Shown: in pieces, positions 3,112 to 45,985 of the stretch
Position numbering within the stretch: the first letter of the stretch is position 1
Layout of the letters: each line of letters begins with the position of its first letter
Assembly (NCBI RefSeq): GCF_003023845.1
Contig: NZ_PYFT01000001.1
Location: forward strand, 5,952,001-6,016,000
Length of the DNA stretch: 64,000 nucleotides
Reading direction: 5' to 3'
Origin: Adhaeribacter arboris
GTDB lineage: Bacteria; Bacteroidota; Bacteroidia; Cytophagales; Hymenobacteraceae
Program-made: the position numbers and the translations under genes
Notes under the pieces: generated by a model
What the model saw: only the letters and a program-made list of their open reading frames with translations
What the model was told of the DNA's origin: nothing
The model's database searches: none

Positions 3112-6100
3112 TTACTGGTTAGTAGAACCTCCTTTTCTGATTTTATGCACTTCAGATACTACTTCTTCGTTCCAAAATTTTTCGTAGTCTAAACCATAAT
3201 AATTTACTATATCCCTGCCATAATTAATATAAGTATTAGCTTGTTCTTGTGAATTGCAGTGTAGTAATAAGATAACTAATCCCCATTTTACACATCCTAA
3301 AGCATGGAACTTTTTCTCTAAGTTTTGATAGATTATTGCTAGAAGTAAATATAATTTTACGACTTCATTCCAAGTATGCGGTTGGTTACTTAGATATTTA
3401 ATTCTGATTTTAAGAGCTTCTAAAGATGCATTTTCGGCTTTTTCGTATTCTTTAATATCACGGTATAAAATACCCAAGTTATGAAGCGTTATGGCTACAT
3501 TCGGCTCAAAGGCGACCGGATTGCTTTGCGCCAGCTTTCTTCTGATTTCCAGAGCTTCTGAAAAGGCCTTTTCGGCTTTTTCGTATTCTTGAATATCACG
3601 GTATAAACCCCCAAGTTAGTAAGTGCCAAGGCTACATCTGGCTCAAAGGCGACCGGATTGTTTTGCGCCAAACTGCGGTAGATGTTCAAGGCTTCTAAAG
3701 ACGCGTTTTCGGCTTTTTCGTATTCTTTGATATCACGGTATAAAATACCCAAATTATTAAGCGTTATGGCTACATTCGGCTCAAAGGCGACCGGATTGTT
3801 TTGCGCCAGCTTTTTTCTGATTTCCAGAGCTTCTGAAAAGGCCTTTTCGGCTTTTTCGTATTCTTGAATATCACGGTATAAAATACCCAAATTATTAAGC
3901 GCTGTGGCTACATTCGGCTCAAAGGCGACCGGATTGTTTTGCGCCAAACTGCGGTAGATGTTCAAGGCTTCTAAAGACGCCTTTTCGGCTTTTTCGTATT
4001 CTTGAATATCACGGTATAAAATACCCAAATTATTAAGCGCTGTGGCTACATTCGGCTCAAAGGCGACCGGATTGTTTTGCGCCAAACTGCGATAGATGTT
4101 CAAGGCTTCTAAAGACGCGTTTTCGGCTTTTTGGTACTCCTGAATATCACGGTATGAAGCTCCCAAATTAGTAAGTGCCATGGCTACATTCGGCTCAAAG
4201 GCGACCGGATTGTTTTGCGCCAAACTGCGGTAGATGTTCAAGGCTTCTAAAGACGCGTTTTCGGCTTTTTGGTACTCTTTAATAGCACTGTATAAATTAC
4301 TCAGATTAATTAATAAAGATGTTTGGAATTCATTATCAAATTCCTCATTAGAAGCTTTATCTAAAAGATGTTCTACGTAGGGGATATAGTTAAAGGCAAT
4401 TGTTCTGTCAGAATGAGCATCTGTATAAGTTAATCTTGTAAAAGAGTTAAACAATGTTTCTGCATCAGCCACGCTCAAATTAAGTTGATAAAATATAACC
4501 TGCTGAATAAGACGATGCATGGAATAAAAATTATCTTCCCGGCTCAGCCAACCTTTTTCTGCTAAATTATCTAAGCTATCTATAATATTATTTTCATCTT
4601 CTTCCGCTACTTGTAATAAATAAAGAATGCTATCAAGCTTGTAATACTGGGGTAGCAGGAAATAAAAATTTTTGAGCAGAAATATTTCAGTTTCATTTAA
4701 TGCAGTGAATTGAAAAGTAAGTAGCAAGTGCTTAAGCAATTGGGTTTCTTCTTGAGTGTGGCTAAGTTCTATTCTTCTTTGCAGTTTAACATCATCTAAA
4801 TGGCCAGTTTTTAGTCTCTCTGTAAGGTATTCAATTGTTAACCGTTGTCGGGAAGCTTGCAAGGTTTTAGCCAGCATTTCAATCATTAAAGTATGATAGT
4901 CCGTTTCTTCCAATAAAACTTCTATTTCTTTTTCGTCGGCTTCATACCAAGTACGGAATAATTCTATCGCTTTATTTTTTTCCAGTTTATCTAAATGAAA
5001 AGGGGTGAAACCCGAAAGAATATTTCGACTGGTTACTAATACATGCCAGGAGGGAGGAGTGGGCAGTATTTTGTTGAACTTCTTTATTTCTTCTCCAACA
5101 TTATCTATTACCAGCAGGTTTTTGCCAGCCATATTTTTTATGGCGTGAATAATACTGTTAAAACGTTCCTGTAACGAAGCAGTATCCTCTATTTTCAAAT
5201 TTAAACCATTAGCCCATAAAGTTTTATCATAAGCAAAAGCGCCGATAAAAGCCTGTTCGCCGCTTTTATCAGTTGCAATTAAATCATCTTGCTTAATTTC
5301 TATCCAGGCTACGTGATTGTACTCTTTGGCGTGAATCTGTAAGTATTTCTTAGCCAAAGTAGTCTTGCCAATACCGCCTAAGCCATTTACCAAAACAACT
5401 TTAGCCGAATTATTTAATTCAGCTTCCAGTTTCTCCAGATCGTTTTCCCGCCCGATAAACTCATCCGTATGGCGCGGAATAAGATTTAATTCATGCGGAT
5501 AGAGGTTTATGTTAGTAGAGCGATTTTCAGCAATAACATCTAACTTATGCTCCATACGATTTAGAGTTATATCCATTCCAAGTACCTTCTCATAGGTAAG
5601 CTGATTTATTCTATAAACCTTATCGAAATTTTGGTTTATGTCTGCTGATAAGACAATTAATGTTTGTTTGATGCCGGTTAAGTCCTGCTCTAGTAGATTA
5701 TAAATCTTTTGCGCTTGTTCTTCCGCTTTTTTATCTGCTTCTTCTTTCGGTAAATAATTAATACTTCTTTCTCTAAGATTGTTTATTGTTTCTAAAAGGT
5801 GTTGCTGTCCGTGCAAAAGTTGCGCATTTTGGTCCCGTAAATCTTCTAGTATCCAAATCTGGAACGCTTTAAAGCCAGGCTCGTCATTTTTTAACGCTTC
5901 TTTAAAAGCTAATTCAAAGCAATAAGGAAGTTGTGCCGCATAAAATTCTTGCAACTTTTGTTTGGTTTCAGGATCAAATTTTACTGAAGTCAATATGAAA
6001 ATATCCGCTACAATTCTATCTAAGAAGGAAGAGGGGGCTTTTATTGAATTTTTGTCAACTGCTACTATATCATCTATAATGGCTAGTCTCAAGTCTTCAA

Positions 6101-6497
6101 TGTTTTCATTAAAAAAGTAAGTAAGCCCTTGTATAAATTCTTTTCTTTCTTCGTCGCTTAAATCTTCTAATCGGTGATCTTTATTAATATGAGTCAGAAA
6201 AGAAGTTTTAATATAATCTAAAGCAACAACGGCTGATTGCCGGAAAAGCCGCTCTAAATCATGATTAACTTTCTCGGGATCAGCTTTACTTAATCTTTTT
6301 AAAACTTTATCATAACTTAAATTACTTAATACTGCCACGTGGTTAGAAGCCAAATTTCCTGTTATAGCCCCAGCCAAAGCCGCAAAAACCGAAACGGGTG
6401 CAGAAGCTCCGCCGGTAACTGCTGTTATTAGACAATTAATGCCCCCGTGCAGGACTAATCCACTTAAAGGTTTTAAAAGCGATTTGTCAAACTTCAT
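3112..6497 (-). CDS. STAND (NB-ARC) ATPase with TPR repeats, frameshifted
   Basis: The 5' frame encodes 1000 residues (stop at 3495). The homologous TPR sequence then continues in another frame to a stop at 3112. Adding one base in the G5 run at 3608-3612 (minus strand) gives a single protein of about 1128 residues. Domains: a Gly/Ala-rich hydrophobic segment at 11-57; a helical region to about 340 with probable coiled coil; an NB-ARC NTPase with Walker A GLGGIGKTT (Lys378), Walker B LLVIDNV (Asp465) and a TSR sensor motif near 490; a winged-helix-like region; and TPRs of 46 residues each from about 730 to the end. STAND proteins of this layout are signal-triggered oligomerising ATPases, several of which act in phage defence or cell death. 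That role is an inference here. No partner gene is adjacent. Confidence 0.8.
3493..4319 (-). repeat. Tandem 138-bp TPR-coding repeats
   Basis: The phrase GGCTACAT followed by CGGCTCAAAGG-type sequence recurs at 3493, 3630, 3768, 3906, 4044 and 4182. The intervals are 137, 138, 138, 138 and 138 bp. Each unit encodes a 46-residue TPR with consensus LGILYRDIQEYEKAE and SLAQNNPVAFEPNVA, and the copies are almost identical in DNA. The single 137-bp interval marks the lost base that breaks the frame. Such near-identity means recent duplication or gene conversion. Confidence 0.95.
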
Positions 6498-16535: not shown

Positions 16536-17306
16536 TTAGATCAGAATCCCGATGGCTTGCTGCGCTTTTAATTTAATGGTCGGCTGTAAATTCTGTTTCT
16601 GCGATAATTTTTTCACCTGGTCTACGGCCTGTTTTTCTTTTAAAGCCACCAAAATATCAATGAGCATGGCCTGTACGTTAGGATCCGTCTGGATTTGCAA
16701 AGATTGAATGTACGCTTCGCGGACCATAGGTAAGTGCCGGTACTGGAATAAAGACTCGCAGGCCGCTAAGCGCACATTTACGTTCGGGTCGAAGTTCATG
16801 GCATTAATTAAAACCTGCACGACTTCTTTATCGGCGGAAGTTTTTCTAACGCCTTCTTTTACCACTTGAATCCGGGCAGCGGCCGTAGATGATTCCGATG
16901 CCTGTGGCGATAATACTTTTTTAAATTCCTGCAAATCTTGGCGTAAGGCCGCTACTTCGTGGTTGGTAGAGCTGGCAAAAGGATTGCGGGTACCTAACCA
17001 AAAGCCCCCGGTTACTAAAATCACACTGGCCGCTAGCTGCATCAATAGTTTAATCGAATCCCGGCCCAAGAAAAACTGGCGGCCTTTCGGTTCCTCAATT
17101 TTGGCAAATAGCCACTCGTCGTGCTTGTAGCCGGTAAGTTTTACATTGCGTTGCGTTTCCATATACTTAAACAGTTCCTGAGCGGCTTTTAGAGTAGCCG
17201 GTACCTCGGTTTGGTTAAAATAAGCCCGTAAATAATCTTCTTCTTCCAGGGTGGTTTCCGCGTCGTAGTAGCGTTCCAGTAATTCCTCTATGTTATCCCA
17301 TTTCAT
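16536..17306 (-). CDS. Membrane HEAT-repeat protein, probable anti-sigma factor
   Basis: From the ATG at 17306 the protein has 256 residues. It has an acidic cytoplasmic N-terminus (MKWDNIEELLERYYDAETTL), a membrane segment at about 84-103 (LLMQLAASVILVTGGFWLG), and a C-terminal part with HEAT-type helical pairs such as DPNVNVRLAACESLF and DPNVQAMLIDILVAL. This is the layout of a transmembrane anti-sigma factor: an N-terminal domain that would hold the sigma factor and an outside sensor. The gene overlaps the sigma gene by 14 bp, implying translational coupling. The anti-sigma role is inferred from position and topology. An upstream ATG at 17315 is also possible. Confidence 0.8.
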   Translation of the reverse strand: MKWDNIEELLERYYDAETTLEEEDYLRAYFNQTEVPATLKAAQELFKYMETQRNVKLTGYKHDEWLFAKIEEPKGRQFFLGRDSIKLLMQLAASVILVTGGFWLGTRNPFASSTNHEVAALRQDLQEFKKVLSPQASESSTAAARIQVVKEGVRKTSADKEVVQVLINAMNFDPNVNVRLAACESLFQYRHLPMVREAYIQSLQIQTDPNVQAMLIDILVALKEKQAVDQVKKLSQKQNLQPTIKLKAQQAIGILI

Positions 17307-17805
17307 ACTTCTCAATTTTTAAAAAACGTTCGCGTACCAGTTTGCGGGCTCTGGATAAGGTAACCCGAATGGTGTTCAGCGGCAGTTGGGTAATCTGCTC
17401 TATTTCTTCGAAGGAATAACCTTCTACATCCCGTAAATGAAGAATCAGTTTTTGTTGTTCCGGTAATTGATCCACTAACCGGCGCATTACCTCGGCGCTG
17501 TTGCTCAGTTCGTAACTTTGCTGAGGAGTTGTATAACTCGATTCCAGTTCCATTGCCGTTACATCTGCCAGGTGCTTAGGAGTTTTTACTTTTAATTTAT
17601 CCAGGCACAAATTTTTAGTTACCGTCATGGCAAACGCTTCTACACTGTTGCAGGCATCCAGCTTGTGCTGGTTGGTCCAGAGTTTCAGAAAAACTTCCTG
17701 TAAAGCATCTTCGGCTTCTTCGTGGTGGCGCAGCATGGTTTTAGCCAACCGGAACAGCTTGTCCTTTACGGGTAAAACTTTCTGCTTAAACGTTTGTAAG
17801 TCCAT
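17293..17805 (-). CDS. ECF RNA polymerase sigma factor
   Basis: The 170-residue protein has sigma-70 region 2 (residues about 10-75, with HHEEAEDALQEVFLKLW) and region 4 (about 110-160, with VEGYSFEEIEQITQLPLNTI and SRARKLVRERF), without regions 1 and 3, as in extracytoplasmic-function sigma factors. It overlaps the probable anti-sigma gene. An ECF-like promoter motif lies just upstream of its start, so autoregulation is likely. The downstream DUF4097 and peptidase genes are its probable regulon core. Confidence 0.93.
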   Translation of the reverse strand: MDLQTFKQKVLPVKDKLFRLAKTMLRHHEEAEDALQEVFLKLWTNQHKLDACNSVEAFAMTVTKNLCLDKLKVKTPKHLADVTAMELESSYTTPQQSYELSNSAEVMRRLVDQLPEQQKLILHLRDVEGYSFEEIEQITQLPLNTIRVTLSRARKLVRERFLKIEKYEMG

Positions 17806-35840: not shown

Positions 35841-36244
35841 ACACAGTAAATTAGATTGAATACCTTTTAGGACCTACTTTTTAAAATAATTTTGTTAGTA
35901 ATAGTATTATCTCGGTTGATAGTCATCTTAACGTAACCCTACCTGGTATCTGGGAAGCGTCCAGAATAGTTGAATAATTCCCTACTTTATGCTTGAAACC
36001 TGAATGGCTCGTTTTACTTGAGAAAGGTAGGTCTACAACACTTCTTTTGCCCCACCTTTTGTAAGCAATTTCTTGTTGGACTCGAAAGAAGAGTAGGTTC
36101 TTTTCTAATAAATTAAGTCCCTTCCAAAAAAAATGTCTTCCAGGTGTTGACCTTTTCATTATTCTGCTATTCATCTTTGGTACAAATAATATTTTTAAAA
36201 TATGCGCTCTTTCAATTAAGTATTAATAACTTACATTATTGCTT
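35841..36244. other. Intergenic region before the second ECF sigma gene
   Basis: About 400 bp. One minus-strand ORF of 83 codons (35923-36174) is open but has no family-like features, so I do not call it. The last 60 bp are AT-rich and should contain the sigma-gene promoter; no clear consensus is seen. Confidence 0.4.
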
Positions 36245-36826
36245 ATGGGTAATGATTTACTGGCTAAAGCGGTGTTAAAAAAAGTTTATTCAGAAGAAAA
36301 CATTCTGCGGGATTTAAAAAATCGCGACGAAAACACTGTACGCCAGGTGTACCAGGCAAACTGGCCCAAAATCCTGCAAATGGTAAAACTAAACAGCGGC
36401 AGCTACGCCGAAGCCAAAGACTTATACCAGGATAGCATGCTCGATTTTCTGGATAAAGTTTCCGGCGAAACCTTTGTGCTTACCTGTAAACTGGAAACAT
36501 TTATTTATTCCATCTGCCGCCATAAATGGTTGTATCACTTAAGAGGCAAACAGCGATTTACCGACCTGGAAGATTACATTGAAGTACAGGATATACCCGA
36601 TGAAACCGAAGAAATAAATGCTAATATGCCCGATGATAACCAGATTATCCGGGCCATTAATGCTCTGGGAGAGCCATGTAAAAGTTTGCTGGTAGGTTTT
36701 TATTACGAAAAGCTGAGCATGGAACAATTAGCCGCGAAACTAAACTACAAAAGCGTGAATGTAGCCAAGCAGCAGAAATTTCGGTGCAAAGATCGCCTGA
36801 AGAATGCCTTTTCAGATTATTTCTAG
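36245..36826 (+). CDS. ECF RNA polymerase sigma factor
   Basis: From the ATG at 36245 the protein has 193 residues. It has sigma region 2 (about residues 22-95, with YAEAKDLYQDSMLDFLDKV and ETFIYSICRHKWLYHLRGK) and region 4 (about 135-190, with CKSLLVGFYYEKLSMEQLAA and SVNVAKQQKFRCKDRLK). It is divergent from the sigma factor at 17293 and belongs to a Bacteroidota group with a long region 2-4 linker. The probable anti-sigma gene starts 11 bp after its stop. The TPR-CHAT gene converges on this pair. Confidence 0.92.
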   Translation: MGNDLLAKAVLKKVYSEENILRDLKNRDENTVRQVYQANWPKILQMVKLNSGSYAEAKDLYQDSMLDFLDKVSGETFVLTCKLETFIYSICRHKWLYHLRGKQRFTDLEDYIEVQDIPDETEEINANMPDDNQIIRAINALGEPCKSLLVGFYYEKLSMEQLAAKLNYKSVNVAKQQKFRCKDRLKNAFSDYF

Positions 36827-36837
36827 TTTTTGCCCTT

Positions 36838-37671
36838 ATGATGGAAGATTTTAATAAAGAGGAGTTGATTGAAAAGTACCTGCTGGGGCAGTTGCACGGA
36901 GAAGCCTTGGTAAATTTTAAACACCGGCTGGTAACGGATGAAGCTCTAAAAAAAGAGGTAGCTTTGGAGCAGGCGATTTTGCGGAATCTAAAAACAGTGG
37001 GTAAAAGGCAAACCTTGCTGCAATTCGAAAATTTTCATCAGGAACTAGAGCAAGAAACCTATACCTACCAAAAGGCAGCGCCGGAATTAAATATATTTCA
37101 GAAACTCGAAAAAATACTAACGGAAAAGTTAACGGGACTTACCGGCCGGCAATATGCTTTCATTGCCGCCAGTGTGGTTTTTATCATTGCCAGTACCTTA
37201 ACCATTAACACCATACTTACCAAACAAAGCTCTCCGGAGACTATTTACCAGGCTTATTACGAACCGTATCCGATAGAAACTTTTAGAGGAGAGGCTACGG
37301 GAACAGCCCTTAAAACCGAAGCGGTTGTTGCTTACAATAGAGGGGACTATTCCCAAAGTATCCGGTTGTTTGAGCAGTTTTTAGCGAAAGAAAAAGATGA
37401 AAAATCTTTATTTTATTTGGGAAATGCCTACTTAGCCGCGGAAAGACCGGAAGATGCTATTAAAACGTACCTGGCTTATTTGCAACAATACCACCAATTT
37501 GAAATGGATGCCAAATGGTACTTGAGCTTAAGTTATATGAAAGTTGGACAGTTTATAGAGGCGAGAAATCAACTACGGGAATTAACAGCCAATACTAACC
37601 CGGATAATATTTACCGGGAAAAAGCCGAAAAGATTCTAAGCAAACAAATGTTTAAAAAATTGCCGGAGTAA
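36838..37671 (+). CDS. Membrane TPR protein, probable anti-sigma factor
   Basis: From the ATG at 36838 the protein has 277 residues. The N-terminal about 80 residues are acidic and helical (KEELIEKYLLGQLHGEALVN), like the cytoplasmic zinc-free anti-sigma domains of Bacteroidota. A membrane segment follows (about 102-121, FIAASVVFIIASTLTI). The outer part has TPR units, for example AVVAYNRGDYSQSIRLFEQF and SLFYLGNAYLAAERPEDAI. It is directly downstream of the sigma gene. By topology the TPRs face the periplasm and could receive the signal. The anti-sigma role is inferred. Confidence 0.82.
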   Translation: MMEDFNKEELIEKYLLGQLHGEALVNFKHRLVTDEALKKEVALEQAILRNLKTVGKRQTLLQFENFHQELEQETYTYQKAAPELNIFQKLEKILTEKLTGLTGRQYAFIAASVVFIIASTLTINTILTKQSSPETIYQAYYEPYPIETFRGEATGTALKTEAVVAYNRGDYSQSIRLFEQFLAKEKDEKSLFYLGNAYLAAERPEDAIKTYLAYLQQYHQFEMDAKWYLSLSYMKVGQFIEARNQLRELTANTNPDNIYREKAEKILSKQMFKKLPE

Positions 37672-38212
37672 GGCAATTATACATGAATACGCGCAACCTT
37701 AAACAGCTACTGGCTAATTATTGGAAATTATATCAAGTCAAGTAATTAGAAGGTCTAAGTTTATAGTAATTGTCTGTATCCTTCCGTTTAGAACTTTTTA
37801 ATACCATATCCAATTAACTACCTTCCGGAAGAATGAAACGAACCTAGGAGATTTTGAAAACAAGATTGTTCAAAATGGACATAGAGAGTAGAACACGCGT
37901 AAATTTTCTTCAAGGTCTTTCCTCTCTGGTCATCCTGGAAGGATCTAACTAGTTTAACGTTAGGAACAGACCAATCCCTATTAAGCTCTTCCAGGGATAA
38001 AGGAGGTAATTAACTCTTTGGCAGGGCTCTGGTTCTTCTTTTCTGCCGGTTAGATTCTTCCAGAATGACAAGTAAAAGAAGAGTAGATGTAATTTGTTGC
38101 GCAGATACTAAATTTCTCCTTTTAGTTTAATTAACACCCAGTATAGCAGATTGCTCAAGCGACTTGGTATACCTATTTAGCTTAATAGCTTTCTCCGGAA
38201 GAACAGAATATT
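37672..38212. other. Convergent intergenic region, nothing recognised
   Basis: About 540 bp between the probable anti-sigma gene and the end of the TPR-CHAT gene. No gene, strong hairpin or repeat is evident. A few CTTCCAG/CTGGAAG words recur. Both flanking transcripts end here, so terminators are expected but not clear. Confidence 0.4.
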
Positions 38213-41137
38213 TTAACTTATTGCCTTTCTTCGTAAAGTGCTTAAAGGATGGGCTCTGTTTACTTTTCTTAAAAGTAGTTTCGGGCCAATGGCTCGCTTG
38301 TATAGCCACCAGAAAATGAAAGTCCCGATTAGAATGCCCGCTAAAATCCAGGCAAATTTCGCGTAGTTACTAGGATAAATAGGAGCCTCGTCCCCAATAA
38401 AGATAAAATTAGCCCAGTAAATTGGTGACTGTAGCCGCGAATTGGTTTGTTTTTTTAAATAATCCAGCTTGGCCAGGCGTAAGGCTTCGTCTTTAGGTTT
38501 TCCCGCTTTTAAATAAGCATGCAGCTGCGTGGTAATGTAAGCCGAAGCCTTATCTTCGGCTTTCCATAAGGTGGTTATAATGCTGGGGCAGCCGGCGTAG
38601 GTAAAAGCGCGGGCCAGGCTTATAATTCCTTCTCCTTGCTCTAATTTGCCGCTACCGGTTTCGCAGGCGCTTAACACGGCTAATTTTAACTTACTCAAAT
38701 CTAAATTATAAATCTCGGGTACAAAAAGCCGGTAATTGCGCAGAGAGTCACCCTGGTAAAAAGCAATATACGATTGCAACGGATTTTGATTGTTGGTTTT
38801 GGCGTGAGTTGCCAGATGCAGGATATCGTACTTATTAGCCAAGTCCAATAAACGTTCCTTCGTTGCTTCTGCTCCTACAAATACCTGGTTGCCTACTTTT
38901 CTGACTTCATCCGCTGATTCCGGTAAGGGAGTTAAAAGTTCGGTCCGTAAAACTACCGAACTAGAGTTATTTCTGGTACCAAAAGGAGCCATGGCCAACA
39001 CGGATATTTCGTGCGTATTGGTTGTGTATTCTGAACTAGTGGGTAAAAGCTTGCCCGAGTAAGCGTAGCTGATACTGTTATCCTGAATTAGGTAGCGGAT
39101 AGTTTTTGCATCAGAAATCAAGGCTTCGAAAGGCAGGTAACTTAGCTCTTTATCGGGTATAATCAATAGCCGGTGTTTGCTGGTGAATAAATCTGCTACC
39201 GGCGCTAGTAGCTGTTGGTATAATTGATGCGCTGCCAAGCTTTCCGAAGCATGAAAACCAGGTTCCGGCTGATAAAATGCTTTATACAATACTCGCCAAT
39301 TTTTCCGGAAAGCCGCAGTGGAGCCAAGTTGTTGGGCTCTGAAACCACGTTGGGTAATAACGAATGCGTATAAGTGGTTCTGGCCAACAAAGTATTCGAG
39401 AAAGGTTGTTTGGTTATCTAGTTTTTCCTGAATCTGGCTTACTTTTACGGGTTCCGAATCATATTTAAGTTGGTAATACTGCTGATTCTTTTCGAAATCT
39501 TTTACCACTTTTGCCAATTCCATTTCATTTTCCCGAATGCGGTCCAGGTACATTTCTTTGCGGGCCGTGCTGACCGTATCTTCTGCCAATTTTACCTGAA
39601 GGGCGGCATTATTACGTTTTAAGCCGGCTTCTTTTTGCAGCAGCTTCTGGCTGATACCCGGAATTTTTTTAATCTTCAAATCCCGTAAATTTTCGGCCAG
39701 TAAAGCGGCTTTACTTTGTTCGGCTAAGACAAAAGCAGTTTGCAGGTAGCGGGCTTGCTGGGTTTGCTTAAAAAGTTGAAAAGCGGTGGCGATGGCTTCT
39801 TCGTAGGTAGGAGCAACCGAACGATTAAAAAATAATTTAGCTTCATCCGAATCATACCCTTTCCGAATGCGGTCGGCCAATTGAAAAGCCAAATCGTACG
39901 TTTGAAGGGAGGCTTCTAAATTACGTATTTTTTGCGTTTTACTATAATACTTCCGAAGGGAACCTGCTTTGTTTTTTAACACTTCAAAAAGTAGCGGGAA
40001 GGAAACGGTACGGGTAAAGTCCGAGGGATTGGAATATATATCTGAATTGTTAAAAGTAAAATGCAGGGTTTGCAAAGCGGATTGGTAATATTGTAAGGCA
40101 AGGGGATAATTCTTTAATAACTCGTAAACCTGCCCTTTCCCGACCAAAGCAACGGTCAGACCATCGTTTTTATCGCCGTAGTTCGCCAGGCTCATTTGTT
40201 GAGCTTTATTAAAATAGGCTAGAGCTTTAGCGGAATTTTGGGATTTATAGTAAACATTTCCCCAGTTATTATATAAATCAATTTGCTCGCCGATAGCATC
40301 CAGGCTGGCATCCTTCGTAGCCTGGGTAATTTTAATTTTTGCCAGGTACGTTTTAGCGCTATCCAGTTGATTTGATTGTAAATACGTAAGGGCAATATTC
40401 TGGTATAATAAATTAGGCAGAATGCTATACCGGATTAAACCCTTTATTTTTTGAAGCGCGGGTTGATAAAGTCCGAGCTTGCGGTAAGCCGTAGCAATAT
40501 TATTACTGTACATCACGTACCGATAAGCCTCGTATTCATTTAGTTCGTGAAACGACTTGCCATCCGGATTTAAATTTTTTAGTACTTTTTCGTAATAATT
40601 GGTGCTCTGGGCATAATTACCCAATAAATAATACAAGTTACCCATGCCATTGTAAAAGCGCAAAGCCTGGGGAGGTTTAGGGTATTTCGCTAATAAATTT
40701 TCGGCATTTTTGTAATAAGTATACGCCGAATCATAATAATTCAAATGAATAAAATTTTCGGCAATTAAGGTATAAGGATAAAAGTTGCTGGAGTCTTTCT
40801 GAGGAGAAATTTTCTGTTGGCAGGCAATAGATTCTTTATAATTTTTAATGGCCTGTTTAAAGTTGCTCCTGGTTTGTTGGATTATCCCAAGGCCAATACA
40901 AGCATCTACCAAATTGGTATCTGCGGGCTTACCTACGTAAATAGATTTTACCTGCTGATATTTTTGAAAAGCTAAATCATAGTTGCCTTGAATAAATAAT
41001 AAAGTCGAAGCTTCCTGGCACAACTGTTCCGCTTGGGGCTGATCCGTACTCTTTTGGGCAAAACTACTTCCGGCAAACAGGAAAAGTGCGGAAAATAAAA
41101 CCACTCCCATTGTTTTTACTACCCGTAATTGGTTCAT
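38213..41137 (-). CDS. TPR-CHAT cysteine protease, exported and membrane anchored
   Basis: The 974-residue protein has a signal peptide (residues about 8-27, ending SFAQ), TPR units over about 30-480 (for example FYNGMGNLYYLLGNYAQSTN), a helical linker, and a CHAT domain at about 620-925. The catalytic dyad is present: His778 in HLATHA and Cys825 in SACETGSGKL, followed by the conserved AFTYAGCPSIITTLWKAED. A membrane segment (about 928-948) and a basic tail close the protein. CHAT domains are caspase-like proteases. Export with a C-terminal anchor places the protease in the periplasm. It converges on the sigma/anti-sigma pair, suggesting a regulatory link. Confidence 0.9.
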   Translation of the reverse strand: MNQLRVVKTMGVVLFSALFLFAGSSFAQKSTDQPQAEQLCQEASTLLFIQGNYDLAFQKYQQVKSIYVGKPADTNLVDACIGLGIIQQTRSNFKQAIKNYKESIACQQKISPQKDSSNFYPYTLIAENFIHLNYYDSAYTYYKNAENLLAKYPKPPQALRFYNGMGNLYYLLGNYAQSTNYYEKVLKNLNPDGKSFHELNEYEAYRYVMYSNNIATAYRKLGLYQPALQKIKGLIRYSILPNLLYQNIALTYLQSNQLDSAKTYLAKIKITQATKDASLDAIGEQIDLYNNWGNVYYKSQNSAKALAYFNKAQQMSLANYGDKNDGLTVALVGKGQVYELLKNYPLALQYYQSALQTLHFTFNNSDIYSNPSDFTRTVSFPLLFEVLKNKAGSLRKYYSKTQKIRNLEASLQTYDLAFQLADRIRKGYDSDEAKLFFNRSVAPTYEEAIATAFQLFKQTQQARYLQTAFVLAEQSKAALLAENLRDLKIKKIPGISQKLLQKEAGLKRNNAALQVKLAEDTVSTARKEMYLDRIRENEMELAKVVKDFEKNQQYYQLKYDSEPVKVSQIQEKLDNQTTFLEYFVGQNHLYAFVITQRGFRAQQLGSTAAFRKNWRVLYKAFYQPEPGFHASESLAAHQLYQQLLAPVADLFTSKHRLLIIPDKELSYLPFEALISDAKTIRYLIQDNSISYAYSGKLLPTSSEYTTNTHEISVLAMAPFGTRNNSSSVVLRTELLTPLPESADEVRKVGNQVFVGAEATKERLLDLANKYDILHLATHAKTNNQNPLQSYIAFYQGDSLRNYRLFVPEIYNLDLSKLKLAVLSACETGSGKLEQGEGIISLARAFTYAGCPSIITTLWKAEDKASAYITTQLHAYLKAGKPKDEALRLAKLDYLKKQTNSRLQSPIYWANFIFIGDEAPIYPSNYAKFAWILAGILIGTFIFWWLYKRAIGPKLLLRKVNRAHPLSTLRRKAIS

Positions 41138-41339
41138 ACTATTTTTTAGGTAGAATTTTTATAAAAGTATTTCGTACGGAAAGAATTTTCTAAACGAATT
41201 GTTCTGACACAATTAGCAGCACCGTTGCGCAATGAAGCCGGTACTGAAACGGGGAAGTACGTTCTGAAAATGAAGAAACTACACGCGGCCGCAACAAAGG
41301 AATGATTTAAAAATGCTGCTCTTGCCCGAAAGTATTTTG

Positions 41340-41358
41340 GGGAAGAATGATTCTTCCC
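41340..41358 (-). repeat. Short perfect inverted repeat after the Ig-like gene
   Basis: GGGAAGAAT (41340-41348) and ATTCTTCCC (41350-41358) flank a single G, 2 bp beyond the stop codon of the gene at 41361. The one-base spacer and lack of a T tract make it a poor terminator; it may mark an mRNA 3' end or a protein site. Confidence 0.45.
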
Positions 41359-41360
41359 GA

Positions 41361-42356
41361 TTACCTTCTGATGCAGATTTCCGGCGGAATTAACGGGTGA
41401 TTCGAGTCCTTGGCACGAGCCATTAAAAAGAAAAAGGAAGAAAAAGTAGCCAATAAAGCAATTAAAACTTCCCAGGAAGTGTCAGGTAAAGAAGTTAGAC
41501 CTAAACTTAATAATAAAGGTAAACCTTGCTGGTAAATAGAATTGTTTTGTTGCCGGATACGTACCTTCAGTTCTTCGGGTATATCGGCTTCGGTATCATA
41601 AAAATGAATCCTGATTTTTGATTTATTAAGCACTTCTTTTCCCGGGCCGCTGAATAACCGGTAAAAAATAGTAAAATCTTTGCTTACTCCATTTTCCGGG
41701 AATCTATCGTTGGGATTATTGGGGTCTTGCCGGAACCCTAAGGCCCCCGACTCAATGGTTTTTCTTAAGTCAATGGTACCCGTTTTAGGATCCAATAGTA
41801 ATCCGAGTAAATCGGCGGTGGGCTTTTGGTTCGGTTCCGGATAAATTCCAAATTCACCGGCAGGCGCTGGCCTGGCCGGAACTTTATCCGAACGAACTTC
41901 TTCTTCCGGACTGGTACTACCGAAGTAAAAGGGCGAAATAATCAGCGCTTCCGGGGGAGATTCCGTTAAGGAGAAAATTCCGCCTTCGTACCCAATGCCA
42001 CTAATTACCACGTGGGTGCGCGCCACACAATCGCGGCCGCACGGCGAAAATTCCACGGTATACCGCACGCCGGCGTCGCTATCGTTAACATCAATTTCGC
42101 CGGTACGCGGGTCAATGTTTAATCCTCCCGGGTAAGCATTAAAAAATCCAGGACCATCAGAGCTGATTTTGGGTAAAACCCGGTTTGGTTCTTCCGGTTT
42201 TTTATAGAAAACCGGCTCTTTGTAGGCATTGAGGTATTTACTTCTGTAAGCAATTTTATATTGTATGCGGTATTCGGGGCAGGAGGGACTTTCTTCCCAT
42301 AAACGATCACTATCCCGGCCGTAGCGGGTTTTACTGGCACTTTCTACCTTATCCAT
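41361..42356 (-). CDS. Membrane protein with two Ig/cadherin-like motifs
   Basis: The 331-residue protein has no N-terminal signal. It carries two related stretches: GGLNIDPRTGEIDVNDSDAG with VRYTVEF (about residues 77-105), and LLLDPKTGTIDLRKTIES with KDFTIFYRL (about 185-235). This pattern (DP.TG.ID then a beta strand) is that of putative Ig or cadherin-like domains. A membrane segment lies at about 294-314 (WEVLIALLATFSSFFFLMA). It is upstream of and in the same direction as the TPR-CHAT gene, with a 223-bp gap. Without a signal the Ig-like part may be cytoplasmic. The function is unknown. Confidence 0.65.
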   Translation of the reverse strand: MDKVESASKTRYGRDSDRLWEESPSCPEYRIQYKIAYRSKYLNAYKEPVFYKKPEEPNRVLPKISSDGPGFFNAYPGGLNIDPRTGEIDVNDSDAGVRYTVEFSPCGRDCVARTHVVISGIGYEGGIFSLTESPPEALIISPFYFGSTSPEEEVRSDKVPARPAPAGEFGIYPEPNQKPTADLLGLLLDPKTGTIDLRKTIESGALGFRQDPNNPNDRFPENGVSKDFTIFYRLFSGPGKEVLNKSKIRIHFYDTEADIPEELKVRIRQQNNSIYQQGLPLLLSLGLTSLPDTSWEVLIALLATFSSFFFLMARAKDSNHPLIPPEICIRR

Positions 42357-42904: not shown

Positions 42905-45900
42905 ATGAAAATGTACAAACTTATTCCCTGCCCGGGGCATGAAAGCAGCAGAAAATGGTGGCACTTCCTTTTTAAGAGCTATCCGCATCCGTTAGCTTGG
43001 GTTTATGCCAGCAAAACTAAATTTTTTGTGTTACTGGTTCTTAGTGTAGTAGCACTAATTAGTCCCGCTATGGCTCAGATAGGTGATATTAATCAATCTG
43101 CCTTAGCCCCTCTCCTGCAACCTTCCAGCCGATATACTTTTTTAAAATTCAGACAAGGGGTACAACTAGCCCCCCAAGAATTGTTTAAATCTTACGCAAC
43201 GGTATTTGGCCTCACAGAAAACGATGTAATGACTTTGCAAAAATCGGATAGCGATAAGTTAGGTTTTACTCATTACCGGTTTCAACAAGTTTACAAGCAA
43301 ATACCCGTGGAAGGAGGAGAGTTTATTGTCCACCAAAAAGGAGGCGAACTAACTACCGCCAATGGCCGGATAGTGCCTAAGTTAAACGCCGAAACAGGAA
43401 ATTATATCCCCGCTGATGCCGCTTTAAATTATGCGTTGCGGTATATAAATGCCAAACGCTACAAATGGCAACTCGATCGAAGATTATATCCGAAGCCTAT
43501 CTTAGTGTTTACGCCCGTAAATGTAGAAAATGGTAAAAACTTTAACCTGGCGGCTACTAATTACCGGTTAGCTTATAAAATGGATATTTACGCGGCCGTT
43601 CCAATTAGTCATAATCGGGTATATGTAGACGCCTATTCTGGGGAGATTATTAGAAGTATGAGCCTTATTCAGAATTGCACCAATGCCACCGCGGCTACTT
43701 TATACAATGGCAATCAAACTATTCAAACCGAACTAACCGCCATGGGTAATTACCGCCTGTTCGATAATTGCCGGAGCGATGGCGCCTGCGGCGATGTGGG
43801 TGGCACCATACGGACCCGTTCTGTGCTTTCAGGAGATTTAACCAATGGCACTACTAATTGGACGGGGGTAGGAGCCAGTGCGCACTGGGCCATTGAAAAA
43901 ACGTACGATTACTATAATTGTACTTTCGGGCGGCAAAGCTACGATGGCGCCAATGCGGTAATTAACGCCTTTATCAATGACAATGCCTTTGGTCGGGATA
44001 ATGCCTTTTGGGATCCGGGTACAAATGACATGCATTTCGGAGATGGAGGGGGTGGTGCTACTACCGGCGCGATTGTGTCCTTAGATGTGGTGGGGCACGA
44101 ACTAACCCACGGCTTTACTCAATATACGGCTGGTCTGGTTTATTCTAATGAATCGGGTGCCTTAAACGAATCGTATAGCGATATTTTTGGTACGGCGGTA
44201 GAATACTACGGCCAAGGCGGTACCGGCGATTATGATATTGCGGAAGATATGTGGATTCCGGGCGGAAAATTGCGCTCTATGTCTAACCCGAATGACAAAA
44301 ACCAACCCGATACTTACTTAGGAACTAACTGGTATACCGGCGTTTTAGACAATGGCGGCGTACATACCAACTCCGGGGTCCAGAATTTCTGGTTTTATCT
44401 GTTAAGCGAAGGCGGAACCGGTACCAACGATATTGGCGATTCCTATAACGTAACCGGAATCGGCCGGGACAATGCACTCGCTATTTCTTATCAGGCCTTA
44501 ACTTATTACATGAACAGTATGGATCAGTATATCGATTCGCGTTATGCTACTATCCAGGCCGCCGAAGACTTATTTGGTGCTTGTTCCCCCGAATCGTATC
44601 AGGTGGCAAATGCCTGGTACGCAGTAGGTGTGGGCGGACCTGTAGGCGATTTGTGGTCGAAAGACCGGCCGGACGATACCGGCGATGAACCCAACAATAT
44701 ATCTTCGTTTATGTGGGGCAGCGAGGATATTTGGGTTAGAAGACAAAATGATGGCCTGACAAACCAAGTACACCAAAATCCCGAATACCGGGATCCAGCT
44801 TTGGGCGTTCCTAATTATGTATACGTTCGGGTTAGAAACCGGAGTTGTACCAGTCCCGGCAGCGGTAACGTAAATCTGTATTGGGCGAAAGCTTCTACCG
44901 GGCTCAGTTGGCCCTCTCCCTGGACAGGAGCCGTAATCGGTGGTTTGCAGATGGGCAATCCTATTGCTACTCTTCCTACCGGTTCCATTGCGGCCAGCGG
45001 GGAAACTATCCTGGAATTTGCCTGGTACCCGCCTAACCCAGCCGATTACAGTGGTGCTTTCGGCCTCGATTTTTCGCACTTCTGCTTATTATCGCGCATC
45101 GAAACTTCTGCTACCGCGCCTTACGGCATGACTTTCCCCGAAAATGCGGATTTGAACCTGAATGTTAAGAAAAACAACAACATTGCCTGGAAAAACATTA
45201 CGGTGGTGGATGAGGCAGCCGGCGGTGGTTTAACCGCCGCGGTAGCCATTGGCAATTACCTGGAGCAAGAGCGTTTACGGACCAAATTAGTGTTCAGCAT
45301 TCCCAAAGAAGAAAAATCGCCTTTTACCGACATTGGCGTAGTACGGGTTGCTTTGGGCGATAAATTATATAAAAAATGGTTAGAAGGCGATAGAGTAGGC
45401 GAAGGGATAAAGGTGAACAACCGAGGCGAAATTTACCTTTCTCAACCTACCGCTTGGATTGGCAATATAATACTTAGTCCGCAGGAGGTGTATGGCATTA
45501 AATTGTTGTTTGATGTAAAAGAAAAACCATTGCAAGACAGCATCTTCCGTTTTGATGTAACACAGTACCGGACCGAGGGGCAAAGGGATTCTTTAGTAGG
45601 AGGAGAGCGGTTTGAAATTAATACGAATGCTCTTTTACGACGGGGAAAATATCAAAAGCAAGTTAGCCGCCAACAGGCAAGTAGCCAGAAAGCTCCTGAA
45701 CCAGTGGTAAATTTACCTCTGAAAAATGAAATTTCAACAAAAGCTTTCCCTAATCCAACCAGCGCTTCGGCTACTATCCAGTTTTATCTGCCTAAAGCCG
45801 GGAATGTAGAACTGAGTATTTATAATGCCATTGGTAATAAAGTGACCACGTTGGTGAATGGGCAACAAGACGCAGGCTATCATGAAGTTTTGTTTCAAAC

Positions 45901-45985
45901 CGATAAGTTACCCAAAGGAATTTACTTCTACCGGCTCCATGCTTTAGGTACTAACCTGGTTAAAAGAATACTGCTAACTAAGTAA
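42905..45985 (+). CDS. M4 (thermolysin-like) metalloprotease with T9SS sorting domain
   Basis: The 1026-residue secreted protease has a long N-region and signal segment (hydrophobic at about 38-57, ending AMAQ), an FTP-type propeptide (about 70-250), and the M4 catalytic domain. The zinc motif HELTH is at 398-402 and the third ligand Glu422 lies in LNESYSD, 24 residues from the first His as in thermolysin. A beta-sandwich region follows, and a type IX sorting domain ends the protein (AFPNPTSASATIQFYL through PKGIYFYRLHA to KRILLTK). It should be secreted and degrade extracellular protein. Confidence 0.95.
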   Translation: MKMYKLIPCPGHESSRKWWHFLFKSYPHPLAWVYASKTKFFVLLVLSVVALISPAMAQIGDINQSALAPLLQPSSRYTFLKFRQGVQLAPQELFKSYATVFGLTENDVMTLQKSDSDKLGFTHYRFQQVYKQIPVEGGEFIVHQKGGELTTANGRIVPKLNAETGNYIPADAALNYALRYINAKRYKWQLDRRLYPKPILVFTPVNVENGKNFNLAATNYRLAYKMDIYAAVPISHNRVYVDAYSGEIIRSMSLIQNCTNATAATLYNGNQTIQTELTAMGNYRLFDNCRSDGACGDVGGTIRTRSVLSGDLTNGTTNWTGVGASAHWAIEKTYDYYNCTFGRQSYDGANAVINAFINDNAFGRDNAFWDPGTNDMHFGDGGGGATTGAIVSLDVVGHELTHGFTQYTAGLVYSNESGALNESYSDIFGTAVEYYGQGGTGDYDIAEDMWIPGGKLRSMSNPNDKNQPDTYLGTNWYTGVLDNGGVHTNSGVQNFWFYLLSEGGTGTNDIGDSYNVTGIGRDNALAISYQALTYYMNSMDQYIDSRYATIQAAEDLFGACSPESYQVANAWYAVGVGGPVGDLWSKDRPDDTGDEPNNISSFMWGSEDIWVRRQNDGLTNQVHQNPEYRDPALGVPNYVYVRVRNRSCTSPGSGNVNLYWAKASTGLSWPSPWTGAVIGGLQMGNPIATLPTGSIAASGETILEFAWYPPNPADYSGAFGLDFSHFCLLSRIETSATAPYGMTFPENADLNLNVKKNNNIAWKNITVVDEAAGGGLTAAVAIGNYLEQERLRTKLVFSIPKEEKSPFTDIGVVRVALGDKLYKKWLEGDRVGEGIKVNNRGEIYLSQPTAWIGNIILSPQEVYGIKLLFDVKEKPLQDSIFRFDVTQYRTEGQRDSLVGGERFEINTNALLRRGKYQKQVSRQQASSQKAPEPVVNLPLKNEISTKAFPNPTSASATIQFYLPKAGNVELSIYNAIGNKVTTLVNGQQDAGYHEVLFQTDKLPKGIYFYRLHALGTNLVKRILLTK

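Follow-up and report, generated by a model that had tools for sequence, protein, structure and literature searches.

A candidate caspase-fold site-1 protease encoded beside extracytoplasmic function sigma factors and membrane anti-sigma candidates in Bacteroidota

We analyzed a gene module of Adhaeribacter arboris that lies in a 64,000-nucleotide stretch of DNA (assembly GCF_003023845.1, contig NZ_PYFT01000001.1, positions 5,952,001 to 6,016,000 of the forward strand), the whole of which is referred to here as the window. The module consists of an extracytoplasmic function (ECF) sigma factor (P0001), a single-pass anti-sigma candidate (P0002), and a predicted exported TPR-CHAT protease (P0003), and it recurs as a three-gene unit in Bacteroidota. 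The residue at the predicted S1 position of the CHAT domain covaries with a conserved residue in the periplasmic linker of the neighboring anti-sigma, which supports a contact of the linker with the S1 pocket. We propose, with a probability of roughly 0.7, that the CHAT protein is the site-1 protease of this sigma system and would cut the anti-sigma after R150, leading through an RseP-type step to sigma release. The linkage, the hydropathy-based topology, the conserved linker site, and the S1 covariation were computed here. The coordinates of all features are listed in Table 1; loci and genomes are numbered with the prefixes L and G.

Conserved site in the anti-sigma linker

The 39 aligned anti-sigmas that belong to the clade of anchored CHATs (see below) share a single conserved spot in the stretch connecting the membrane helix to the TPR domain; in the window it corresponds to R150-G151. 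The first column holds Arg in 30 sequences, Met in 5, Lys in 2, and Gln and Thr in 1 each, and it is followed by Gly (18) or Ser (15), so that the site looks like a P1-P1' pair. After realignment of the larger set of 86 pairs described below, Arg is found in 70 of 86 and the next residue is Gly or Ser in 74 of 86. An Arg-Gly/Ser dipeptide is present in 32 of 56 linkers taken from both clades (the linker shared by L028 and L029 being counted twice), compared with 8.7 (standard deviation, 2.6) in shuffled sequences.

A GF[SA]G-like motif was seen in 6 of the 17 linkers outside the anchored clade (e.g., L025, L026, L027, L123, L125, and L128) and in 0 of 38 anchored ones, and these linkers possibly represent another recognition type.

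Covariation of the linker residue with the CHAT S1 position

An unguided scan compared the columns of the CHAT alignment with the basic or non-basic nature of the linker residue in 39 pairs. The top column is E744, with a raw p of 3.6e-5 among, by our estimate, some thousands of tests: the residue is acidic in 31 of the 32 pairs with Arg or Lys in the linker and aliphatic in 5 of the 7 pairs without. Position 744 is Glu in 123 of 129 CHAT domains, and the four domains with Leu (L034, L035, L036, and L060) are all paired with Met in the linker. In the structure model of P0003, E744 lies within helix 739-748, right after strand 713-717, and is predicted to occupy the place of P1 recognition in clan CD proteases. 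In gingipain R (Asp163) and MALT1 (Asp365), the P1 specificity residue of the clan is described to be an acid at this site in helix alpha-1 that binds the P1 Arg; separases conserve an acid there, and caspases have Arg (PMC4626109, PMC4357240). An acid for Arg and an aliphatic residue for Met is the expected pocket logic.

The covariation was followed into new loci by searching 395 genomes of the phylum, where 75 new regions were chosen among the matches listed, with a preference for matches reaching the C-terminus of the profile and with several close relatives included. The first set comprised 46 CHAT open reading frames (ORFs) passing a filter for the catalytic Cys (letters SAC), which left out 32 of the 75 loci, and 40 of these 46 have a sigma gene within 6 kb. 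Of the 35 new anchored pairs, 33 have both a basic residue in the linker and an acid at the S1 position, and 2 have neither, with 0 mismatches (Fisher p 0.0017). With repeated anti-sigmas removed, 33 pairs remain (31 with both and 2 with neither), and all 33 are matched.

Adding the 12 loci with a usable linker among the 32 outside the filter led to a set of 86 pairs with 83 distinct linkers, of which pairs the older loci contributed 39 and the 75 new loci 47. The older pairs were assigned to the anchored clade by the tree (31 have a scored C-terminal helix), and the new pairs all have the helix; excluded were loci lacking a sigma gene or a usable downstream ORF, L195 (no clear transmembrane helix), and four non-anchored pairs. 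Both sides were realigned from scratch, resulting in the linker/S1 combinations R/E (69), R/I (1), M/L (6), M/A (3), M/E (1), K/E (2), K/N (1), K/I (1), K/V (1), and Q/E (1). Thus, 69 of the 70 pairs with Arg have Glu, and 9 of the 10 with Met have Leu or Ala (Fisher p 1.5e-10, uncorrected for descent). Taking one row for each CHAT cluster at 60% identity, we counted 51 R/E, 1 R/other, 4 other/E, and 11 other/other (p 1.2e-8), and at 45% identity the 48 rows are divided into 36, 1, 4, and 7, respectively (p 3.3e-5).

Five genomes hold two modules of differing type, namely, G378 (L181 and L198), G545 (L205 and L200), G537 (L178 and L213), G473 (L218 and L217), and G534 (L203 and L211), and every CHAT matches its own neighbor. 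Species history or base composition alone would not yield this pattern.

Table 1. Positions of the module and its features in the window (position 1 is the first letter of the stretch)
Feature	Position	Strand	Basis
Conserved upstream element GTTRACYT-N7-ATTYTGCWATT	36146..36171	+	exact in four orthologous loci
ECF sigma factor P0001, 193 aa	36245..36826	+	TIGR02937, E 2.6e-16
Single-pass membrane anti-sigma candidate P0002, 277 aa	36838..37671	+	hydropathy; structure model
Transmembrane helix of anti-sigma candidate, residues 109-127	37162..37218	+	hydropathy
Predicted cut site R150-G151, periplasmic linker of P0002	37285..37290	+	conserved column in 39, then 86 pairs
Predicted periplasmic TPR part of P0002, residues 157-277	37306..37671	+	TPR_16; best Foldseek match, YbgF TPR domain
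Predicted exported, membrane-anchored TPR-CHAT protease P0003, 974 aa	38213..41137	-	Pfam CHAT, E 5.8e-59
C-terminal transmembrane anchor of CHAT, residues 928-946	38300..38356	-	hydropathy
Putative catalytic Cys825 codon of CHAT	38663..38665	-	C in 129/129 aligned CHAT domains
Putative catalytic His778 codon of CHAT	38804..38806	-	H in 129/129 aligned CHAT domains
Predicted S1-pocket residue Glu744 codon of CHAT	38906..38908	-	top column covarying with linker R150; clan CD S1 position
P0004, protein without family assignment, outside the conserved module	41361..42356	-	no Pfam/NCBIfam match

Linkage of CHAT genes to ECF sigma pairs

A sequence-only reading of the window had described four genes at 36245-42356, which we find as claimed: a sigma gene, a gene for a TPR protein starting 11 bp behind it, a converging TPR-CHAT gene 541 bp away from P0002, and a gene upstream of the latter. 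P0001 scores 59.7 bits against the sigma70-ECF superfamily model TIGR02937 (cut-off, 42.9) and 24.1 bits against Sigma70_r2 (cut-off, 24), and P0003 reaches 200.3 bits with the Pfam CHAT family (PF12770; curated cut-off, 24). The same reading expected all four genes to be conserved together. This applies to sigma, anti-sigma, and CHAT, whereas P0004 is found in only 4 of 101 clustered loci (the window, L020, L021, and L022). Its label as an Ig-like protein is not supported, as library scans matched no Pfam or NCBIfam family.

The source genome (7.25 Mb) encodes four CHAT genes, all of them within 3.4 kb of an ECF sigma gene with a membrane anti-sigma candidate behind it, where one sigma/anti-sigma pair sits between, and is common to, two of the four. 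A sigma profile finds 30 ECF genes in this genome, and by our arithmetic about 6% of CHATs would be expected to have one within 5.5 kb by chance, so that the observed 4 of 4 goes beyond chance. Since CHAT-adjacent sigmas, those of the source genome among them, went into building the profile, it proves little that the three top ECF matches of the genome are the CHAT-adjacent ones, and we rejected this ranking as evidence.

For the CHAT family of the window, a sigma gene lies within 3.5 kb in all 18 regions chosen from the matches, with L028 and L029 sharing one pair. Scanning named genomes with CHAT as the sole criterion, and covering the best 80 of 572 relatives, gave a sigma gene within 5.5 kb in 38 of the 80 and in 24 of the 40 loci with at least 5 kb on both flanks. 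Neighbor clustering of 101 loci, two of which were retrieved by their anti-sigma, found sigma genes in 58 loci and anti-sigma genes in 54, compared with 12 for the next most frequent family. The 56 near CHAT-sigma pairs are arranged convergently in 25 cases (24 within 2 kb and 1 further apart), divergently in 24, and codirectionally in 7.

All 59 domains scored with a C-terminal helix fall into one clade of 71 (SH [Shimodaira-Hasegawa] support, 99) when the 129 CHAT domains are placed on a tree. Within this anchored clade, 42 have a sigma gene within 5.5 kb, 13 have none although each flank spans at least 4.5 kb, and 16 are unscorable, which gives 42 of 55 scorable members. The remaining 58 rows include 22 with a sigma gene, 22 without, and 14 unscored, and an all-sigma group of 11 among them contains the three other CHATs of the source genome.

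At 11 further loci (L222, L226, L227, L229, L233, L234, L235, L237, L238, L241, and L246) a sigma gene is near an anchored CHAT, and no anti-sigma-like ORF of 150 to 450 residues was found directly behind it; in L222, the gap behind the sigma gene partly reads as N. Eight loci (L025 to L028 and L030 to L033) have in common an ORF of about 557 residues on the far side of CHAT, and the two that were scanned gave weak TPR matches. The CHAT gene of L027 (L027:6500-9672, genome G003) is split into two ORFs.

Membrane topology and structure models

The topology calls are based on hydropathy and charge. P0003 has a hydrophobic N-terminus (residues 4 to 22) and a basic tail behind its C-terminal helix, in line with the export signal and anchor noticed before. 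Among the anchored CHATs, the flank after the C-terminal helix is more positive than the flank before it in 55 of 59 (means, +3.1 versus -0.3). This charge difference locates the catalytic domain outside the cytoplasm. An ORF lies right behind the sigma gene for 58 of 63 CHAT-linked sigmas checked. A single mid-protein hydrophobic helix is present in 56 of these 58 ORFs, with the more positive side being N-terminal in 44 of 56, placing the C-terminal part of the anti-sigma outside the cytoplasm as well. Charge and hydropathy across relatives thus put the protease and substrate domains on the same side of the membrane and support the earlier view that the CHAT protease domain and the anti-sigma TPR domain both face the periplasm.

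The model of P0002 (predicted local distance difference test [pLDDT], 87.6) shows a helical N-terminal region, a long membrane helix, and a TPR domain starting at residue 157. The TPR part matches TPR_16 with an E-value of 2.3e-10, and the Foldseek search gave the TPR domain of YbgF as the best match, all of the top 50 rows being of TPR type. The anti-sigma zinc finger zf-HC2 matches 8 of 49 aligned P0002 relatives weakly (E ≤ 0.1; best, 4.3e-4), and P0002 itself does not match it at E ≤ 0.1.

The best Foldseek match of the P0003 model (pLDDT, 86.6; predicted template modeling score, 0.83) is Csx29 (PDB ID 8eey_B; E-value, 2e-16; TM-score, 0.43 of the query), with further matches to separase (9hma; 1.5e-13) and then the transmembrane anti-sigma DdvA (8rw5; 8.3e-13). 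Searching the CHAT profile against PDB sequences resulted in a DdvA entry first (8rot_B; 6.6e-9), followed by Csx29-type proteins. The parallel to Csx29, which the sequence-only reading had drawn, therefore holds for the fold, while DdvA, another relative, had been missed.

Proposed mechanism and alternatives

In the mechanism that we favor, the N-terminal domain of the anti-sigma would hold the ECF sigma factor in the cytoplasm, and the protein would cross the inner membrane once, with its TPR part in the periplasm. The exported TPR-CHAT protein would be anchored by its C-terminal helix with the caspase-fold domain on the periplasmic side, and its own TPR region, the likely sensor, would probably read the signal. 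Upon this signal, CHAT may cut the anti-sigma linker after R150 (FR|GE), and the shortened stub could be passed on to an RseP-type intramembrane protease, by which the sigma factor would be freed to switch on a set of genes. The claim that CHAT cleaves the anti-sigma on the outside is well supported, if indirectly, by adjacency, hydropathy topology, and the P1/S1 covariation, with the cleavage itself being a prediction. The suggestion that the TPR domains of the two partners dock to each other finds no support as a general mechanism, because the anti-sigmas of L025 to L027 have no TPR region in the alignment and recognition by CHAT seems to sit in the linker.

Two genes for M50 proteases, which are of the site-2 type, are present in the source genome (best E-value, 3.3e-63) and provide a candidate for the RseP-type step; as M50 is found in 14 of 14 control genomes, their presence adds little weight. 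The second of them (L029:8397-9638; genome G000, C1, about 2108396-2109637) adjoins the two-CHAT sigma cluster, at a distance of about 1.7 kb from the far end of the L029 CHAT gene.

Several observations weigh against the proposed mechanism. The second column of the unguided scan, 793, is nearly as good as E744 (p 2.1e-4). The exceptions in the 86 pairs are L078, where a linker Met is paired with Glu744, L044 (Q/E), L082 and L090 (K/E), and L095 (R/I), the residue in L082 and L095 being unsure as it differs between two alignments. The tree shows five changes of E744 and eight of the Arg, which means few independent switches, and a tree-based pair test found 2 well-supported independent pairs, too few for the test to have the power to reach 0.05. 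In a small and mixed control of 20 loci with non-CHAT sigmas, 11 have a downstream ORF bearing a transmembrane helix, and R-[G/S] occurs somewhere in 5 of these 11 linkers (3 of the 5 being orthologues); outside the anchored clade, Arg-Gly/Ser is found in only 5 of 17 linkers of CHAT loci. Finally, an order-level sample with one CHAT per genus among the matches listed has a sigma gene in 7 of 31, and in Aureispira 0 of 13 loci, several with short flanks, have one within 5.5 kb. The order-level sample rules out a link to sigma for all CHATs and, taken with the tree of 129 domains, assigns the link to CHAT subfamilies, chiefly the anchored one that includes the window gene.

The covariation also bears on three other explanations. 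CHAT might be an output of the sigma factor, i.e., an envelope protease of its regulon that is kept beside the regulator without acting on it. As most near pairs do not form one operon, separate control of CHAT and sigma is possible, in agreement with this explanation, which however leaves unexplained that the S1 residue tracks the linker residue of the anti-sigma. Moreover, the conserved element before the sigma gene is the only match in the window when up to 3 mismatches are allowed, so that there is none upstream of CHAT. We consider a role as output unlikely.

The main alternative allowed by the same data is a pseudosubstrate, where the anti-sigma would fill the S1 pocket of CHAT as an inhibitor and CHAT would act elsewhere. 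Securin inhibits separase by filling its S1 pocket, and separase comes next after the Csx29-type chains among the fold matches. The covariation in itself is evidence of contact at the S1 site and does not extend to turnover, which we infer because the dyad is intact and a small residue stands at P1'. The Gly or Ser that directly follows the Arg position in 33 of 39 linkers looks like such a P1' residue and speaks against an inhibitor, an explanation that we regard as improbable. It seems no less improbable that CHAT is a scaffold or sensor binding the linker for another periplasmic protease that makes the site-1 cut, even though Csx29 is described to work inside a larger complex (PMC10028731), as the covarying column is the S1 position and the His778/Cys825 dyad, already reported as intact by the sequence-only reading, is invariant in all 129 aligned domains (one short row of 130 being excluded) and, by alignment, in all 32 loci outside the SAC filter.

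For most Bacteroidota ECF systems, no protease is known to start sigma release. Extending the proposal of CHAT as site-1 protease beyond the window, we lean towards a large family of anchored extracytoplasmic caspase-fold proteases in Bacteroidota, each serving as site-1 protease of the neighboring ECF anti-sigma. The S1/P1 residue pair (Glu with Arg and an aliphatic residue with Met or Lys) would hard-wire specificity, insulating co-resident modules. Counting Csx29 and DdvA as well, sigma release would then be a general role of CHAT proteases, with envelope or phage damage perhaps being what they sense. Naming the protease, the cut site, and a two-residue code together makes the hypothesis open to direct test. 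If it is true, caspase-fold proteases would act as periplasmic triggers of gene switches, the Csx29 case would be extended beyond CRISPR, and a set of insulated protease-substrate pairs would be on offer.

Upstream element and neighboring genes

The element GTTRACYT-N7-ATTYTGCWATT upstream of the sigma operon is exact in the window, L020, L021, and L022, these being the four source loci of the pattern, and is possibly its promoter. A dyad count over 124 sigma upstream regions gave, among the 25 listed, A/T-rich pairs only, save one with a single G. A promoter common to sigma and CHAT was rejected, with almost all of the listed dyads being purely A/T-rich and the conserved element standing before sigma alone in the window. 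In the source genome (G000), the element has 8 matches at up to 2 mismatches, compared with 0 for the reversed pattern, and the 7 besides the one before the sigma gene are possible additional sigma sites.

The longer P0004 relatives of L021 and L022 have a hydrophobic N-terminus, which is missing at the start of P0004 itself and of its L020 relative. Adjoining the module, a thermolysin-like M4 protease with a Por secretion tail is encoded at 42905-45985 (+). The window has a second ECF sigma gene at 16536-17805 (-), with an overlapping downstream ORF containing a hydrophobic stretch and no CHAT nearby, and at 3112-6497 (-) a gene for an NTPase-like protein with near-identical TPR units, which by eye is perhaps broken into two ORFs near the 3' end. 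A PADLOC defense-system scan matched only a TPR model, and a label as a defense system was rejected on this ground.

Comparison with known systems

Already known are a TPR-CHAT protease freeing an ECF-like sigma factor (Csx29-Csx30), a membrane anti-sigma bearing a CHAT domain (DdvA), and CHATs near ECF54 sigmas. The open-access literature searched yielded no account of an exported CHAT that is a protein separate from the membrane anti-sigma with which it is paired, nor of a linker/S1 site code, although one may exist elsewhere.

Csx29, the TPR-CHAT protease of type III-E CRISPR systems, is described to cut Csx30, which inhibits an ECF-like sigma factor. The cut is placed between residues 427 and 429, and deletion of Met427 stops it (PMC10028731). 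The Csx29-Csx30-CASP-sigma system (Cas7-11) resembles the present one in combining a TPR-CHAT protein with an ECF sigma inhibitor, in the fold, and in the Met that some modules here carry at the linker site. Unlike Csx29, the protease here is predicted to be exported and membrane anchored, with a single-pass membrane protein as its substrate. A profile search detected no RAMP gene (PF03787, Cas7-11) in the source genome, while 4 of 14 control genomes gave matches.

In Myxococcus xanthus, DdvA acts as the anti-sigma of DdvS, an ECF sigma factor (PMC4374960), and DdvS is reported to control an antiphage island (PMC12288465). As a transmembrane anti-sigma of an ECF sigma factor with a CHAT domain, and by its high sequence and fold match, DdvA is close to the present system. 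However, judging from the PDB titles and the match, its CHAT and anti-sigma parts appear to form one chain, whereas here they are two genes and CHAT would act in trans.

The ECF54 group is described with CHAT, subtilase, and carboxypeptidase neighbors, and proteolytic control was proposed (PMC8999054). It shares CHAT proteins near an ECF sigma gene with our loci, but the group, with an example from Geodermatophilus, is described without an anti-sigma, whereas a one-helix ORF lies behind 56 of 63 CHAT-linked sigmas here. The EACC2-caspase systems (PMC8195603) likewise combine a caspase-fold domain with ECF sigma and DUF1822 TPR protein neighbors, but have another constant domain, and the cited description mentions no CHAT or matched linker. 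A further Bacteroidota CHAT that is apparently transmembrane is found in the variable region of the Bacteroides fragilis type VI secretion system; in contrast to the CHATs here, it is read as a likely immunity protein, and no sigma pair is mentioned in the cited sections (PMC11854122).

The proposed sequence of events is analogous to DegS-RseA-sigmaE and PrsW-RsiW-sigmaW, where an extramembrane site-1 cut of the anti-sigma is followed by an intramembrane protease. PrsW is the site-1 protease of RsiW-sigmaW. RseA and RsiW, the anti-sigmas of the two systems of regulated intramembrane proteolysis, are both named in PMC10028731. In contrast to these systems, the site-1 protease here would be a caspase-fold CHAT protein.

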